NCBI GenBank assembly: GCA_030550015.1 | Contig: JAUQQG010000118.1 | Location: forward strand, 1-64,000 | DNA length: 64,000 nt | Direction: 5' to 3' | From: a bacterium | GTDB lineage: Bacteria > Sysuimicrobiota > Sysuimicrobiia > Sysuimicrobiales > Thermofontiviventaceae | Shown here: in pieces, positions 9,571-16,060 of the stretch | Position numbering within the stretch: position 1 is the first letter of the stretch | Layout: every line of letters begins with the position of its first letter | Position numbers and translations under genes: made by a program | Notes under the pieces: model-generated | Database searches by the model: none | Seen by the model: only the letters and a program-made list of their open reading frames with translations | Told to the model about the DNA's origin: nothing

Positions 9571-10041
9571 TTACTTGGAATGCTTATCGGCGACCTTGGA
9601 CGCTCCGTAAGCCTCCGGCTTGATCACCGCTGCATAGCCGGAGCCAGTGACCATCCCAACGACCTCGCGGATGATCTTCTTGGTCTCTCCGTTGTTCCCC
9701 ACGTCTAGGTGGATCTCCACAGGGAGATCGGAAAACCCGTTCTTGGCCAGCTCGGAGCTAATCTGGCTGGCGACTTCCAGGCTCAGGGAGGCTTCATAGA
9801 GGATGCGCTGGCGCAGGCTCTCGATCTTCCGGTTGCGGAACTTTCGGTAGAAGTACCGTCCACCCCGGCCGAGGCGGTGGATGATCACTGCCGTGACAAA
9901 TGTGGTCTCGTCTCCCAGGAGGGAGTCTGTCCCGATAATGAGGTGGTACTGGCGATCGGGATCCTCCTGGATGTATCGCACGATCTGTCGGAACATGCGC
10001 TCAAAGCTGAGTTTCCCGTACGTCGGGCTGATGAACTCCAT
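9571..10041 (-). CDS. YkuK/DUF458-type ribonuclease H-like protein
   Basis: 156 residues from the ATG at 10041, which has an AAGGAG site 10 nt upstream; the frame is open further but that part lacks conservation. The sequence begins MEFISPTYGKLSFERMF and contains the IIGTDSL segment with an acidic residue, as in the YkuK family, which adopts an RNase H-like fold. The C-terminal HLDVGNNGETKKII and VKPEAYGASKVADKHSK-like stretch are typical of the family. Function is unknown in characterised bacteria. It is the last gene of a leftward group that also holds recR, ybaB and dnaX, separated from recR by 151 bp containing a hairpin. Confidence 0.82.
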   Translation of the reverse strand: MEFISPTYGKLSFERMFRQIVRYIQEDPDRQYHLIIGTDSLLGDETTFVTAVIIHRLGRGGRYFYRKFRNRKIESLRQRILYEASLSLEVASQISSELAKNGFSDLPVEIHLDVGNNGETKKIIREVVGMVTGSGYAAVIKPEAYGASKVADKHSK

Positions 10042-10148
10042 GGCACGTTGCTCCTTGACCCTCCCTAAGTATACTTCGGGCCGCATGGTGACGCAACCCA
10101 AGGATGCGAACGGTCTTCCGTGAAACTGCCTGCGGTCATTCGAAGTAT

Positions 10149-10171
10149 CCTGGCAAAACTCTTTTGGCAGG
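10149..10171. repeat. Short palindrome of the GGCAAAA...TTTTGCC type
   Basis: The CCTGGCAAAA arm and TTTTGGCAGG arm form a stem with one mismatch around a 3 nt loop. It lies between recR and the YkuK-like gene, both leftward, and could end recR transcription, although no U-run follows. Similar palindromes occur near 28140, 36386, 36525, 49581, 50433 and 53814. Confidence 0.5.
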
Positions 10172-10192
10172 GTCCCCTCCCGGTAGAATGCC

Positions 10193-10789
10193 TTAGAGTT
10201 CCCTTCGCCCCTCTAGGGCTTTTGCCAGGGTGACCTCATCGGCGTATTCGAGATCTCCACCGACGGGGAGGCCGTGGGCGATGCGCGTGACCTTGATCCC
10301 CATGGGCTTGATGAGCTTCGCCAAGTAGATCGCCGTGGCTTCTCCTTCCACCCGAGGGTTCGTGGCGATGATCACCTCTTTGATCTCGCCGGTGGAGAGA
10401 CGGTAGAGGAGGTTCCCGATCTTCAGGTCATCGGGGCCAACCCCATCTAAGGGGGAGATGGCTCCGTGGAGGACGTGGTAAAGCCCTCGGTACTCGCGCG
10501 TGCGTTCCATCGCGATCACGTCCTTCGGGTCCTCGACCACACAGATTGTGGACCGGTCCCGGGAGGGGTCTGAGCAGATGGCACAGGGATCCACATCGGT
10601 GAGGTGGAAACAAGTGGAGCAGTAGCGAATTTCCTTCCTGGCTTCGACCATAGCCTGTGCCAGGCGTTCTACCTCCTCCACGGGCGCACGCAGAAGGTAA
10701 AACGCCAGGCGCTGAGCCGTCTTTGGGCCAACCGTGGGCATTTTCGAGAGTTCTGTGATGAGCTTCGCCAGCGGTTCCGGGTAGTGCAT
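10193..10789 (-). CDS. recR: Recombination mediator protein RecR
   Basis: 198 residues, full length. An N-terminal helix-hairpin-helix ([17 protein letters not shown], about 17-33) is followed by the Cys4 zinc finger (CSTC...CAIC, about 57-72) and the Toprim domain with [14 protein letters not shown] and the terminal [20 protein letters not shown]. RecR works with RecO and RecF to load RecA onto gapped single-stranded DNA. The order dnaX-ybaB-recR is a widely conserved bacterial arrangement, which supports the call. A 119 bp gap with a GAGGTG/CACCTC hairpin separates it from ybaB. Confidence 0.97.
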
Positions 10790-10908
10790 AGGTAGGATCC
10801 CATCATACCATCGCTTCTGGAGCTGTTCTTGAGGTGAGGCGCTTTGGCACCTCGCCGCACTCTTTTGGATTTTGCCGGCTGCCCCTCCGGTGCATACGAG
10901 CCGCGTAC

Positions 10909-11217
10909 TTAGAACAGACCTGGGAGTTTGACCCCGCTTGCTTCCTCCATCTTCTTGCTCGAAAGCTCCCTGGCCTGCCGCCGTGCTTCATTGACCGCTG
11001 CGACGATCAGGTCCTCCAACACCTCCACGTCCTCGGGGTTGACCACGGAAGGATCGATGCGGAGCTGCAGGAGATCCCCATGTCCATTGGCCACAACCTT
11101 GACGGCGCCTCCCCCTGCTGTGGCCTCCACACGCTCCTCCTTGAGCTCTTCCTGGACCCGGACGATGGCCTCCTGGACCTTCTGGAACTGTTTCAGCATC
11201 TTCTGCATGTTCATCAT
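10909..11217 (-). CDS. YbaB/EbfC family nucleoid-associated protein
   Basis: 102 residues from the ATG at 11217, whose ATGA overlaps the TGA stop of dnaX, with GGGGAG upstream. The protein starts with a methionine- and glutamine-rich helix ([17 protein letters not shown]), then the conserved [26 protein letters not shown] core and the [12 protein letters not shown] helix. YbaB/EbfC proteins are small DNA-binding dimers of uncertain precise role. Translational coupling to dnaX and neighbouring recR is the classical context. An in-frame GTG at 11226 is possible but less likely. Confidence 0.93.
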
Positions 11218-12962
11218 GGGTTCCACTCCCCTTCGATATTCTTCTTAGCCTCTGGAGATCCCCGCGTCCCCACGATTCTACCCCCAAACATCGCAATGGC
11301 TTTGGATACGAGGGGATCGGGGTCCGGGGAGCCCGCATGGGCTTTGGGAGCAGGAGGGAGGTCGGTGATCAGACAGTGGAGGCGCAGGGGCGTGCCCACG
11401 ACCTGTGCGATCGCCTCCTCCACAATGGTCCGGTTCTCCTCCGTTTGGAGGTGCTCGAGATGGAAGTTGTATCCGGGCCGAAGCCCGACGAGGAGAGTCC
11501 CGTTTTCGACCTTGAGCAACTCCGCATCGATAAGGAGAGCGTGGCAGAACATCTTCTTCCGCTTGATGGCATCAAGGATTCGGGACCAATGGCTGGCCAC
11601 GGTGGCAAACAAGTCCTCATCCCTCTCTTGAGGCCCGTTGGGAGAGCGCGGCACACTTGGGGGATCGAAGTTCGTTTCCTCCGGAGCACGCTCTGCCCGC
11701 TCCTCTTTCTGCGCTTGGGGCTCGGGATTCATAGTCTGCCCCTTCCCGCTCCCTCTGGGGGATTGGCGGGATTGCGCACGGGAAAACTTTCCCACGGGCT
11801 GAGCACCCGGAGGATGGACGCCAGCCTTCTGCTCGAGCGCTTCCACCCTGCGGGCCAGGTCGCTCGGAGATTCTTGATCGAGCCCCGCGAGACGGAGAAG
11901 GGTCAACTCCAAAAGAAGCCGCAGTTGGGGATGGAAACGCGATTCAGACTCGCTCCTGGCAAGGATCTTGAGCGCGCGCAGGATCTGCTCCAGGGAGAGC
12001 CGTGTTGCCTCGTCGCGAAGAGTGGCAATGTGTGCTTCTTGGTGGTCAAGGAGTTCTGCAGGGTTGGGGCAGGCCTTCACGATGAGGAGGTCACGGAAAT
12101 GCTCCAATAGGAAACGAAGGACTTGGCGAATCTCCTTTCCCTCATCGACGATCCGGGATGCCAAACGGAGTGCCTGAACGGGGTCCTGGGAAATTACGAT
12201 CTCCGTCGCTTGGTGGGCGATCTCTTCCTCGACGAGACCAAGGAGGGTGACGACATCCTCTCGAGTGATCCTTCCCTGCGCAAAGGTGGCAAGCTGGTCC
12301 AGGATGCTTTCTGCATCGCGAACGGAGCCATCGCTCATGCGGGCGATGAGGAAGAGTGCATCCTCCTCTACAGAAAGTCCTTCCTCCCGGGCGATGCGCT
12401 GGAGCCGGCTTACGATCTCCCTCCCTGGGACACGCCGGAAGTCAAATCGTTGCGTGCGGGAGAGGATCGTGGGGGGGAGACGATGAGGCTCTGTGGTGAC
12501 GAGGATGAACACCGCGTGCGCAGGAGGTTCCTCCAGGGTTTTCAAGAAGGCGTTGCATGCTTCTTGTGTCATCATGTGTGCCTCATCGATGATATAGACC
12601 TTGTACCTTCCCTCTGCGGGGGCAAGGCGGACGCGCTCTCGCAGCTCGCGGATCTCGTCGATGCCCCGGTTGCTCGCTGCATCGATCTCAATGACATCCA
12701 CAGCATACCCGCCACTGATCGCTTGGCAATTCGGGCAGGCATTGCATGGTTCTGGCGTGGGCCCCTGCTGGCAATTCAGTGCTTTGGCCAGCAACCTTGC
12801 GGTTGTGGTTTTGCCCGTTCCCCGGTGGCCGGCGAAGAGGTAGGCATGGACGATGCGGTTCGCCCGCAGGGCGTTCTGGAGGGTGCGGATCACCCGTTCC
12901 TGCCCCACGACCTCTTCAAATCTCTGCGGGCGCCACTTGCGATAGAGGGAAACGAACGTCAC
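11214..12962 (-). CDS. dnaX: DNA polymerase III subunit gamma/tau
   Basis: 582 residues. The GTG start at 12962 has a GGAGGT site 6 nt ahead; the frame is open to 13154 but that part is not DnaX-like and overlaps the divergent gene. Walker A is GHRGTGKTTT (Lys51), the zinc-binding cysteines are at about 64, 73, 76 and 79, Walker B is IIDEAH (about 124-129) and the LSRTQRFDFR sensor region follows. Domain III and a proline- and glutamine-rich linker (about 400-470) precede a C-terminal tau-like domain. It is the clamp-loader ATPase of the replisome. I see no programmed frameshift slippery site, but did not search exhaustively. Confidence 0.96.
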   Translation of the reverse strand: MTFVSLYRKWRPQRFEEVVGQERVIRTLQNALRANRIVHAYLFAGHRGTGKTTTARLLAKALNCQQGPTPEPCNACPNCQAISGGYAVDVIEIDAASNRGIDEIRELRERVRLAPAEGRYKVYIIDEAHMMTQEACNAFLKTLEEPPAHAVFILVTTEPHRLPPTILSRTQRFDFRRVPGREIVSRLQRIAREEGLSVEEDALFLIARMSDGSVRDAESILDQLATFAQGRITREDVVTLLGLVEEEIAHQATEIVISQDPVQALRLASRIVDEGKEIRQVLRFLLEHFRDLLIVKACPNPAELLDHQEAHIATLRDEATRLSLEQILRALKILARSESESRFHPQLRLLLELTLLRLAGLDQESPSDLARRVEALEQKAGVHPPGAQPVGKFSRAQSRQSPRGSGKGQTMNPEPQAQKEERAERAPEETNFDPPSVPRSPNGPQERDEDLFATVASHWSRILDAIKRKKMFCHALLIDAELLKVENGTLLVGLRPGYNFHLEHLQTEENRTIVEEAIAQVVGTPLRLHCLITDLPPAPKAHAGSPDPDPLVSKAIAMFGGRIVGTRGSPEAKKNIEGEWNP

Positions 12963-12991
12963 CAGGTCACCTCCACGGAATCTTATAGGTA

Positions 12992-14164
12992 ATGCCGGCT
13001 GTAAAGTCGCTCCCCACGCATCGAGGGACAAGGAGCATGTCATCCCTCTTGGAGGTAGATTCGGTGATGGAGGGAGGCTTTCCTGCGGATATGGACAAGA
13101 GGGTGAAGGAAATCCCTCTGGCGAAATCTTTTGAAGAGAATTTCCTGGGCCCACAGGAGGTTCCTTTGTGGGGTTCTCTCGCTGTCATTGTTCTGTCAGG
13201 GATTGCGTCCCTGTGGGTTCTCCTCGATGCGGGGAACCGCGGGCTCGGGAGTAGGAATCCTCTCGCCAACCGAGCTTTGTTGTGGGCGATCGGGGTATTT
13301 CTCGCTCTGCCCATCATCCTCCCCCTGTATCTCCTCTGGGGGCGCCCTGTTGGAGTCCTTGCGCCCTGCCCGTCCTGCAACCGTCCCACCCTGGCCCATC
13401 GAGCATATTGCCTGCACTGCGGGTTCCCCCGGGATTTTGAACCTCCCCCGCGCGCTTGGGGCATTGGGGAGATCGTTGGGATCACGGCGATGTTCTCGAT
13501 GACGTTACCGCTTCTCGCAGGCATGGCTGGGACCCTGCCTGCCTCTGGCCTCCTCCCGCTTTCAGCATATGTGGTAGTGCAGAATGCCTTCTTCGTTTTC
13601 CTCTCTCTCCACGTGGTCCAACGGCGGTACCGTCTTACTCCGGACGTGTTGGGATGGCGGTGGTCGTCGTGGCAGCGAGATCTCCTTCTCGGGGTGTGCA
13701 TCGGTGCAATGGCCCTTGGTCTGTCGATCCTCGCAGAGGAAGCGGTGATCCGGGGGATCGGCCTCTTCCTTGGGCGCGAACGGGTTTTGGAGATGGCACA
13801 GAGTGAACACAGCAGGGATCCCATCTTGACCCTCCTCACCCGTCCCGTGAGCTACATTGAGCTGATCTGGCTCTTCTTGCTCCTTCTCGTCGTTGTTCCA
13901 ATGGGAGAGGAGACCTTCTTCAGAGGACTAGTCTTTGGATGGCTTCGCGCGCGTTGGGATCGGCACGTTGCAGTATGGGCCAGCGCGCTCTTCTTCGCCC
14001 TCGTTCACCAACAGATCGTCCATTTCCTCCCCGTCCTGGTCTTGGGAGGGATCCTTGGCTACCTCCGGGAGTTCACGAGGGGATTGCTTTCTCCCATGGC
14101 CGTGCATGCTCTCAACAACGCCGTCGCCATTCTCAGCGTTTATCTCTTTCATCGTCCCTTCTGA
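12992..14164 (+). CDS. CPBP family intramembrane metalloprotease with zinc ribbon
   Basis: About 390 residues. An N-terminal membrane segment pair is followed by a Cys4 zinc ribbon (Cys126, Cys129, Cys140, Cys143) exposed between helices, then a multi-pass CAAX-protease/bacteriocin-processing (CPBP) domain. The three catalytic motifs are intact: EE(306-307)TFFRG, FALVH(339) and H(372)ALNNA. Family members cleave or regulate membrane substrates. The start is uncertain: ATG 12992, ATG 13037 (AAGGAG only 1 nt away) and ATG 13091 are all possible. It diverges from dnaX and lies 62 bp before the HhH-tail membrane protein, with which it may form an operon. Confidence 0.85.
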   Translation: MPAVKSLPTHRGTRSMSSLLEVDSVMEGGFPADMDKRVKEIPLAKSFEENFLGPQEVPLWGSLAVIVLSGIASLWVLLDAGNRGLGSRNPLANRALLWAIGVFLALPIILPLYLLWGRPVGVLAPCPSCNRPTLAHRAYCLHCGFPRDFEPPPRAWGIGEIVGITAMFSMTLPLLAGMAGTLPASGLLPLSAYVVVQNAFFVFLSLHVVQRRYRLTPDVLGWRWSSWQRDLLLGVCIGAMALGLSILAEEAVIRGIGLFLGRERVLEMAQSEHSRDPILTLLTRPVSYIELIWLFLLLLVVVPMGEETFFRGLVFGWLRARWDRHVAVWASALFFALVHQQIVHFLPVLVLGGILGYLREFTRGLLSPMAVHALNNAVAILSVYLFHRPF

Positions 14165-14226
14165 AGGGGGAGGAGTTTTCTGATGAGTTAAAAATATACT
14201 CTGCAAGGAGGCGGGAGGTGAAGAAA

Positions 14227-15771
14227 ATGCGTACGAGATACCCGAGAAAGGGTAAGAGGAAAGGAGCGGGCACAGGGAAAGCGTGGCTGAAGGGATTCCT
14301 CCTCTCCGTTGCCATCGTGATCCTAGCTCAGTTGGCCTACGCTCAACCGGGCACCCCTGTGGTCGCTACTCCTCTCGTCCAGGTCGAGGGGCAGGTGGTG
14401 AACACGCAAGGGCAACCAATCTCACGAGCCACCATTACCTATGCAGACCGCCTTGGAGGGGATCGGAAGACAACGGCAAGCGACAACCGGGGCCGGTTTC
14501 GCTTCATGGTTTCAGGAGATCAACTGAGGGTCGACTTCTCTGCTCCTGGCTACCGTCCTAGGTCCCAGGTTGTTCCCATTGGCGAGGGAACCACCCAGTT
14601 GCAAATCTTCGCCGTACTCCCTCCGAGCTCCGATGTCATGGTATTCATTTTCCTCCTTCCGGCCCTCGCAGGCATTGTGATTTGGGTCTTCTTCCGTATC
14701 TGGGGAGCGGCTCCGTGGGTCACTCACCTGTACTCCATCACCAGCGTGTTGAGCTGGGTCGGGGTGTTCGTGGCGTTCCTGTACACGTGGCTCAGGAGCG
14801 GCGTGAGCACTCTGCAATTTTTCCACCCGGACGTGGAGATCTCCCTACTCGTCCCCATCTTTGCCTTTATCGGCGTTCTCCTCTATGCCACCACGAGCAT
14901 CGTGGAACATTTTGGAGATCCTCATGGTCGCATGGCCTACCGGAAGTCCCTTATGGCAGTAGCGCACCGGGTCCTCCTGGCACCCTATGTGGCGGTCATC
15001 GCCAACCTTCTCCTCGTGAAAGCAGCGCTGGAGGAGGTTCTCAGTGTCCAGCCTGGCGTTGGCCTTACCACCGTGGAGGTTTTCCTGGCATTCTTTACTG
15101 GTGCCTACATGAAGCCGATCTTGAACTGGATCAACGAGCGAGGCGCCCGGCTCCTCCCACGCCCCCTCCAGGAAGAGCTGGAGATGCGAGAACAACCAAA
15201 CGAGCTGGTGAAGAAGCTAGGCATGACCGTCGAGCTTGCAGAGGACCTTGGGAGGAAAGGGATCTCTACAGTACAGGACTTGGAAGAATTGAGCGACGAG
15301 GATCTCAGCCGCATCGCGGAGGAGATTGTCCTGGACAGGGACCAGCTCCTCCACTGGCGGTCCATGGCCAAAGCTTACCGCCAGAACTTTGCCACCATGC
15401 AGAGGCTCCTGAACCTGAAGTCGCACGAAGAAGAGCTCCTGGAGGAGGCCAGGATCATCTCCATCTGGCAGCTTGGGCGGATGGAGCCCGAGGAGCTGAC
15501 CGGGAGGATCCCAGAGTTTGACCGAACGAAGGCAGAATATCTCTGCAAGGCAAGCAGGGGGTATGCAGCTCTCCTGGGAGTCTCTCCCTCTCTTTTGGAC
15601 AAGCTCAACCACCGGAAGATCAAGGAGATCGTCAACTTGAGCAATATCCCCACGAATCTCGAGGAGGAGTTCGAACGGCTCATCAAGATTCTCAAGGAAC
15701 CTGGTGTTCTTGAAGCGGTGGGGGAGACAGAGATCTCCGCTGTGGTCACCGCGCGAGGCGCGTCCGGGTAG
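14227..15771 (+). CDS. Membrane protein: secreted carboxypeptidase-regulatory-like domain, TM bundle, cytoplasmic helix-hairpin-helix tail
   Basis: 514 residues. The ATG at 14227 has a GGAGGTG site 6 nt upstream. A basic leader and signal-type helix (20-39) are followed by a carboxypeptidase-regulatory/transthyretin-like beta domain (about 50-130; VEGQVVNTQGQPISRATIT). Then come about five hydrophobic helices (136-157, 168-189, 207-225, 243-266, 278-297). The cytoplasmic C-terminal half has a helix-hairpin-helix-like region (about 330-386; LGRKGISTVQDLEELSDEDL) and further helical hairpins to 490. I do not recognise a named family with this order. The helical tail resembles DUF4332-type repeats. 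It ends 14 bp from the 3' end of the convergent SRP RNA gene. Confidence 0.75.
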   Translation: MRTRYPRKGKRKGAGTGKAWLKGFLLSVAIVILAQLAYAQPGTPVVATPLVQVEGQVVNTQGQPISRATITYADRLGGDRKTTASDNRGRFRFMVSGDQLRVDFSAPGYRPRSQVVPIGEGTTQLQIFAVLPPSSDVMVFIFLLPALAGIVIWVFFRIWGAAPWVTHLYSITSVLSWVGVFVAFLYTWLRSGVSTLQFFHPDVEISLLVPIFAFIGVLLYATTSIVEHFGDPHGRMAYRKSLMAVAHRVLLAPYVAVIANLLLVKAALEEVLSVQPGVGLTTVEVFLAFFTGAYMKPILNWINERGARLLPRPLQEELEMREQPNELVKKLGMTVELAEDLGRKGISTVQDLEELSDEDLSRIAEEIVLDRDQLLHWRSMAKAYRQNFATMQRLLNLKSHEEELLEEARIISIWQLGRMEPEELTGRIPEFDRTKAEYLCKASRGYAALLGVSPSLLDKLNHRKIKEIVNLSNIPTNLEEEFERLIKILKEPGVLEAVGETEISAVVTARGASG

Positions 15772-15784
15772 GACCAGTTGACCG

Positions 15785-16060
15785 CTGCGGCCGTGCACCC
15801 GCTGTCGACCAGCCCCTACGAGCGGTATCCTCCTGGCCGGCTCCGACCAGGTCCCCCCACGGCAGTGGAAGTACCGACGTACCGTTGCTCCCTTCCGGGC
15901 CTGGCGGGGTTTGTCGGCTTCCATCGCGCAGGGCCCAGCCCTCCTCGCCTTCCAGAGAGGGCCTGCCTCACAGGAGAGGGCCTCGAGCGGGAGTTCGGCC
16001 CCGCGTAGAGCGGATTTCGGGTACAGGGAACCGCTAGCTCCCCGCCTAGCACGGCCGCAC
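15785..16060 (-). ncRNA. ffs: Signal recognition particle RNA, long form (with Alu domain)
   Basis: On the minus strand the 5' end reads GCGGCCGTGC (16058-16049) and pairs perfectly with GCACGGCCGC near the 3' end (15796-15787). The first bases continue GCTAGGCGGGGAGCTAGCGGTTCCCTGTACCC, the conserved Alu-domain 5' region of long bacterial SRP RNAs. The SRP54-binding apical hairpin carries the family core CCAGGCCCGGAAGGGAGCA (about 15884-15903). Length is near 275 nt, like Bacillus and Thermotoga scRNA rather than the 4.5S form of Escherichia. It binds Ffh and directs membrane protein targeting. ORFs crossing this region are spurious. Exact ends are estimated from the terminal stem. Confidence 0.93.

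Follow-up and report, generated by a model that had tools for sequence, protein, structure and literature searches.

A widely shared, ordinary membrane protease and a membrane protein that combines known domains in an unusual order are encoded side by side at this locus, and their proximity raises the question of whether they work together. The window analysed here is a stretch of 64,000 nucleotides (bases 1–64000 of its contig) from a genome of 2.65 Mb in 127 contigs, whose phylum, CSP1-3, is named Sysuimicrobiota in PMC11604079. The gene for P1 (12992–14164) is followed on the same forward strand by that for P2 (14218–15771), and with 53 bp between them the two may be co-transcribed. The initial annotation put forward two ideas, that the protease P1 cleaves its neighbour and that P2 is a membrane-linked nucleic-acid-binding factor. 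The reading that we prefer, with a probability of roughly 0.55, is that P1 is a vertically inherited and probably active housekeeping protease while P2 is a separate, lineage-specific protein of a receptor-like or scaffold type, carrying a docking tail. To place both genes we used a phylum sample of 43 genomes, made up of the host and 42 relatives from other families than the host's own, together with the P1 loci of 19 relatives (out of 39 that have a P1 match), chosen mostly for their long contigs.

P1 is a CPBP protease with a Cys4 ribbon

The P1 reading frame has 390 codons counted from its first ATG. Alternative starts at GTG 13064 or ATG 13067 have GGAGG upstream, and residues 1–29 of the AlphaFold2 model have a pLDDT below 50; the true start may lie at one of these later positions rather than at 12992. 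The protein scores 70.4 bits against the Rce1-like family PF02517, passing the Pfam gathering score of 22.4, and no named CPBP subfamily among the NCBIfam profiles attains its cut-off. Neither P1 nor P2 gave a match in PADLOC. The P1 model has a mean pLDDT of 84.5 and, in the fold comparison, SpdC (6u0o; Z 14.3, rmsd 4.2 over 201 residues) and Rce1 (4cad; Z 12.3, rmsd 3.8 over 181 residues) stand alone above background, with the next row at Z 4.4.

The active-site motif EExxFR is found at residues 306–311 (13907–13924, forward strand). Glu306, Glu307 and Arg311, as well as His339, His372 and Asn376, the last two making up an HxxxN motif (372–376), are invariant in 20 of 20 rows of each of two alignments. 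PMC11980579 describes EExxxR and HxxxN as motifs critical to CPBP catalysis. From these sequence features P1 is probably an active CPBP intramembrane glutamic endopeptidase. It shares the core fold and the EExxxR, H and HxxxN residues with the CPBP/Rce1-like enzymes (Rce1, the myxosortase MrtX, MroQ and, as a fold relative, SpdC), but adds two N-terminal helices and a Cys4 ribbon ahead of this core. P1 is, then, a known kind of protein, a family member with a ribbon variant.

The ribbon lies between predicted helices 2 and 3 (13367–13420, forward strand) and has the pattern CPSC-x10-CLHC, formed by Cys126, Cys129, Cys140 and Cys143. Although it remains below threshold against the Pfam zinc-ribbon profiles (12.3 versus a cut-off of 25), it was modelled by AlphaFold2 as a β-hairpin with a pLDDT of about 90, and the four cysteines are kept in 10 homologues, counting P1 itself. 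The Cys4 pattern that the initial annotation described within a CPBP protease is thus present, as a putative zinc ribbon. Among the homologues scanned, the carriers are this genome and nine loci (L003–L011) of families f6 and f2. The ribbon is absent from all other scanned homologues with an intact N-terminal part; L030, as half of a broken gene, is uninformative. As judged from these alignments the ribbon is an accessory module confined to three families, and it would presumably help to recruit or position substrates, or else stabilise the protein. We also considered whether zinc-ribbon CPBPs might be a general type, and rejected this: within a genome-contig collection the ribbon was present in 6 of 80 CPBP loci, all of them close relatives of P1, and a single further match to the pattern (L157) looks like chance.

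The setting of P1 is strongly conserved. A P1 match was found in 40 of the 43 phylum genomes (39 of the 42 relatives), with none in G019, G035 and G041. In all 19 relatives' loci dnaX is divergent from P1 and is followed by ebfC and recR. On the other side, beyond P2, is a gene for the large bacterial SRP RNA (15791–16054, reverse strand; RF01854, 168.3 bits), 19 bp past the P2 stop. An SRP RNA gene of this kind was located near P1 in 13 of the 19 loci, with strands confirmed by blastn; it faces P1 in nine of these 13 and runs the same way as P1 in the other four. It was not found at L077, L081, L082, L083, L089 or L094, the contig of the last ending 620 bp past P1. The gap between the P1 stop and the SRP RNA is 0–120 bp in 11 of the 19 loci; at L079 it measures 622 bp and at L087 about 1.27 kb. 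This would be best explained if P1 has been inherited vertically in CSP1-3/Sysuimicrobiota, with a fixed place next to dnaX-ebfC-recR and, for many lineages, next to the large SRP RNA gene as well, which forms part of the preferred reading and shares its probability. Being highly conserved in an uncultured phylum, beside replication and recombination genes and the SRP RNA, P1 is a sensible target in the hunt for a housekeeping substrate.

Two further features of this region can be recorded. The cluster adjoining P1 in the window (9571–13154) consists of an RNaseH_like gene (PF04308), recR, ebfC and dnaX, and the RNaseH_like gene is present in 18 of the 19 loci. The four loci at which the SRP RNA strand is flipped relative to P1 (L076, L079, L080 and L088) belong to one family.

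Architecture and distribution of P2

P2 is an orphan membrane protein of 517 amino acids, starting at GTG 14218 with AAGGAGG ahead of it. The codon usage of its frame carries 0.34 bits per codon, whereas none of the other five frames exceeds 0.04, and its GC content and GC3 (0.716) are ordinary for the window. Given this native codon signature and ordinary composition, P2 is a real gene that does not look recently foreign. All of its features are on the forward strand. By sequence and hydropathy, a predicted signal peptide or first anchor covers residues 22–42 and ends in AYA-Q (14281–14343); the N-region has 10 Lys/Arg and no acidic residues. A CarboxypepD_reg (TTR-like) domain follows at residues 55–127 (14380–14598), where PF13620 passes its gathering score with 49.6 bits versus 32.3 (E 5.3e-13). 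The membrane region, assigned from hydropathy and low-confidence model helices, comprises residues 138–303 (14629–15126). It contains four clear helices and a fifth that is marginal (best 19-residue KD 1.37). With five helices the Lys/Arg-rich loops would face the cytosol and the tail would be inside, so that five helices and a cytoplasmic tail seem likely; without the fifth the tail would face outside, which counts against the preferred reading.

The domain order given in the initial annotation therefore stands as far as its two terminal domains are concerned, since both the CarboxypepD_reg domain and the DUF4332/HhH tail described below exceed their cut-offs, whereas the five helices and the cytoplasmic location of the tail are likely only. 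Like that annotation, we found no named family with this order, and none of the open-licence literature covered describes such an architecture. A whole model of P2, predicted from the single sequence, has a mean pLDDT of 47.3 and gave no match at E ≤ 0.001 in a fold search; no PHROG match was obtained either. P2 is a modest new architecture of known domains, with a putative function.

In the phylum sample P2 occurs in the host only (1 of 43 genomes). Six other genomes gave matches at E ≤ 0.01, five of them to the outer-domain end alone and one, in G014, to a permease. Among 386 genomes from across the domain, searched at E ≤ 0.01, the host was the sole strong match, P2 itself being accompanied by weak matches only. 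Eight of the nine weak matches (all but L049) were read as open reading frames. By eye these eight resemble NusA, ribosome recycling factor, an ABC permease, a methyltransferase and a sugar isomerase, and they were on this ground rejected as relatives. There was no match at E ≤ 0.001 in 400 genomes of the G386 phylum or 201 of the G387 phylum, and P2 homologues were not found in genome contigs, viral contigs, plasmids or phages, in searches that had no known positive, so that their empty outcome by itself shows nothing. These wider searches covered genome samples with one membrane protein sequence as the query, with which remote homologues are easily missed. Lineage-specific, as used here for P2, means that these sequence searches did not find it in any other family covered.

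A degenerate DUF4332 domain in the P2 tail

The initial annotation proposed comparing the tail with DUF4332, and this comparison was positive. Residues 335–438 (15220–15531, forward strand) match PF14229 with 43.3 bits on the protein and 45.6 on the DNA, passing the gathering score of 23.2, over profile positions 2–99 of 122. Weak Pfam matches to RNA_pol_A_CTD (PF03118, E 0.0096) and HHH_5 (E 0.29) were also seen. The domain is degenerate: no G-x-G hairpin turn is found anywhere in residues 304–517, while in the DUF4332 alignment (15 of the 16 best loci, L059 being left out) 12 of 15 relatives retain the first GxG and 11 of 15 the second, counted by eye. Internal HhH repeats in the tail were not significant (shuffle p 0.07–0.18). 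Across its 214 residues (304–517) the tail has 30 Lys/Arg and 40 Asp/Glu, giving a net charge of −10. While the best DUF4332 matches are small open frames of about 135–240 codons, in P2 the domain is fused behind a membrane region.

In the P2 model a pLDDT of 69–84 is reached only at residues 330–390 or thereabouts (74–84 over most of 331–380), and the domain-level fold comparison consequently bears on the tail, barely covering the membrane region and outer domain. In this weak single-sequence model the best match of the tail is the first acidic repeat of NusA, AR1 (1u9l; Z 9.2, rmsd 2.4 over 67 residues), with AR2 (6ib8) at Z 8.0. By this model the tail would share an HhH-like fold with the NusA acidic repeats and the C-terminal domain of the RNA polymerase α subunit, in addition to its acidic character and the weak PF03118 similarity, but P2 has none of the other NusA domains and carries its module on a membrane protein. 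NusA AR2, a dual HhH domain, binds the protein SuhB (PMC6614801). Because of the weak NusA-like model and the acidic composition, we infer that the tail docks a protein partner, which fits better than nucleic-acid binding. Some caution is suggested by the RAD51-type/RAD51-complex and POLQ HhH domains, some of which act with DNA and which score within about 1 Z of the two NusA repeats. The NusA-like match also derives from a model of low mean pLDDT, and with no P2 homologue found, conservation of a docking surface can only be supposed.

Searches with the DUF4332 profile gave matches in 25 of the 386 genomes at E ≤ 1e-5, one other of which (L050) belongs to the host's order. L050 is the one other DUF4332 match in the phylum and is a different, unrelated membrane protein: P2 and L050 do not match one another (E 1.1). 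Like P2, the proteins at L050 (genome G023) and L075 (genome G249) are polytopic membrane proteins with a C-terminal DUF4332 domain. The two are 42% identical over 247 amino acids of the membrane part, and both, unlike P2, keep a GxG. This type of DUF4332-tailed membrane protein, present in two unrelated genomes, is possibly an undescribed family. At L067 and L069 (genomes G177 and G314) DUF4332 repeats end large coiled-coil proteins, whose upstream part, by eye, is presumably an SMC/RecN-type ATPase.

Relationship between P1 and P2

If P1 were a processing protease with P2 as its dedicated substrate, a cut within the membrane would release one end of P2, either its HhH tail or its outer domain. 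The genes are adjacent on one strand with a gap of only 53 bp, the catalytic motifs of P1 are intact, and a two-gene arrangement of a CPBP enzyme with its target has a precedent in MrtJ/JDVT-CTERM (PMC11980579). On the other hand, 39 of 42 relatives have P1 and 0 of 42 have a P2-like gene, the fixed neighbours of P1 are dnaX and the SRP RNA, and P2 shows by eye no C-terminal sorting tag but ends in a soluble tail. The initial annotation looked to gene neighbourhoods to judge whether the pair is conserved, and named lack of linkage in related genomes as a refutation of its proposal; this is the outcome seen here. P2 is never next after P1 at the 19 relatives' loci, where the SRP RNA or other genes are found instead, and it occupies the gap between P1 and the SRP RNA in the host only. 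As the adjacency is not conserved, the proposed functional pair is unsupported, and we consider cleavage of P2 by P1 very unlikely. Being adjacent in this genome only, the two probably do not work as a pair, although a link between them may have been acquired in this lineage alone. The idea that P2 uses its HhH tail to keep DNA or RNA at the membrane gains something from the DUF4332 match, the weak RNA_pol_A_CTD and HHH_5 matches and the high ranking of the POLQ and RAD51 HhH domains in the fold comparison. It would seem unlikely, however, for a tail in which both hairpin turns kept by most DUF4332 relatives are lost, acidic residues exceed basic ones and the best fold match is to a NusA acidic repeat.

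A separate matter is whether P2 is a new arrival or has long been present in the phylum, its sequence changing too quickly to be recognised or the gene having been lost in all the other sampled families. Its native composition and codon usage agree with the latter, as does the make-up of the sample, drawn from families other than the host's and searchable for the membrane region with one sequence only. Nevertheless, the DUF4332 profile yields a single other match in the phylum, in a different protein, and with 120 bp or less between P1 and the SRP RNA in 11 of 19 relatives there is no room for P2; we regard an old origin as possible but doubtful. On the preferred reading, the P2 gene would have taken up its place between the P1 and SRP RNA genes in this lineage. 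The protein would be exported by Sec, display its TTR-like binding domain outside and span the membrane about five times. Its C-terminal domain, cytosolic, acidic and derived from an HhH fold, would bind another protein in the manner of NusA acidic repeats, rather than nucleic acid, making P2 a receptor or scaffold. A more specific and quite improbable version is that P2 is a transmembrane receptor coupling an extracellular ligand, bound by the TTR-like domain, to a cytosolic module like the NusA acidic repeats or α-CTD, thereby tethering a transcription complex or another cytosolic complex to the membrane; no named family was found for a receptor combining such domains. On a small scale, P2 shows a putative HhH docking domain of cytosolic type standing after a sensor-like outer domain and a membrane region. 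Should the tail indeed bind another protein, P2 would represent an additional signalling or scaffold architecture; failing that, it is just a single orphan gene.

Elsewhere in the window, a T-box leader (1870–2113; RF00230, 101.9 bits) precedes open reading frames at 2260, 3433 and 5077. By Pfam the second of these is a D-3-phosphoglycerate dehydrogenase and the third a seryl-tRNA synthetase, which suggests control by serine.
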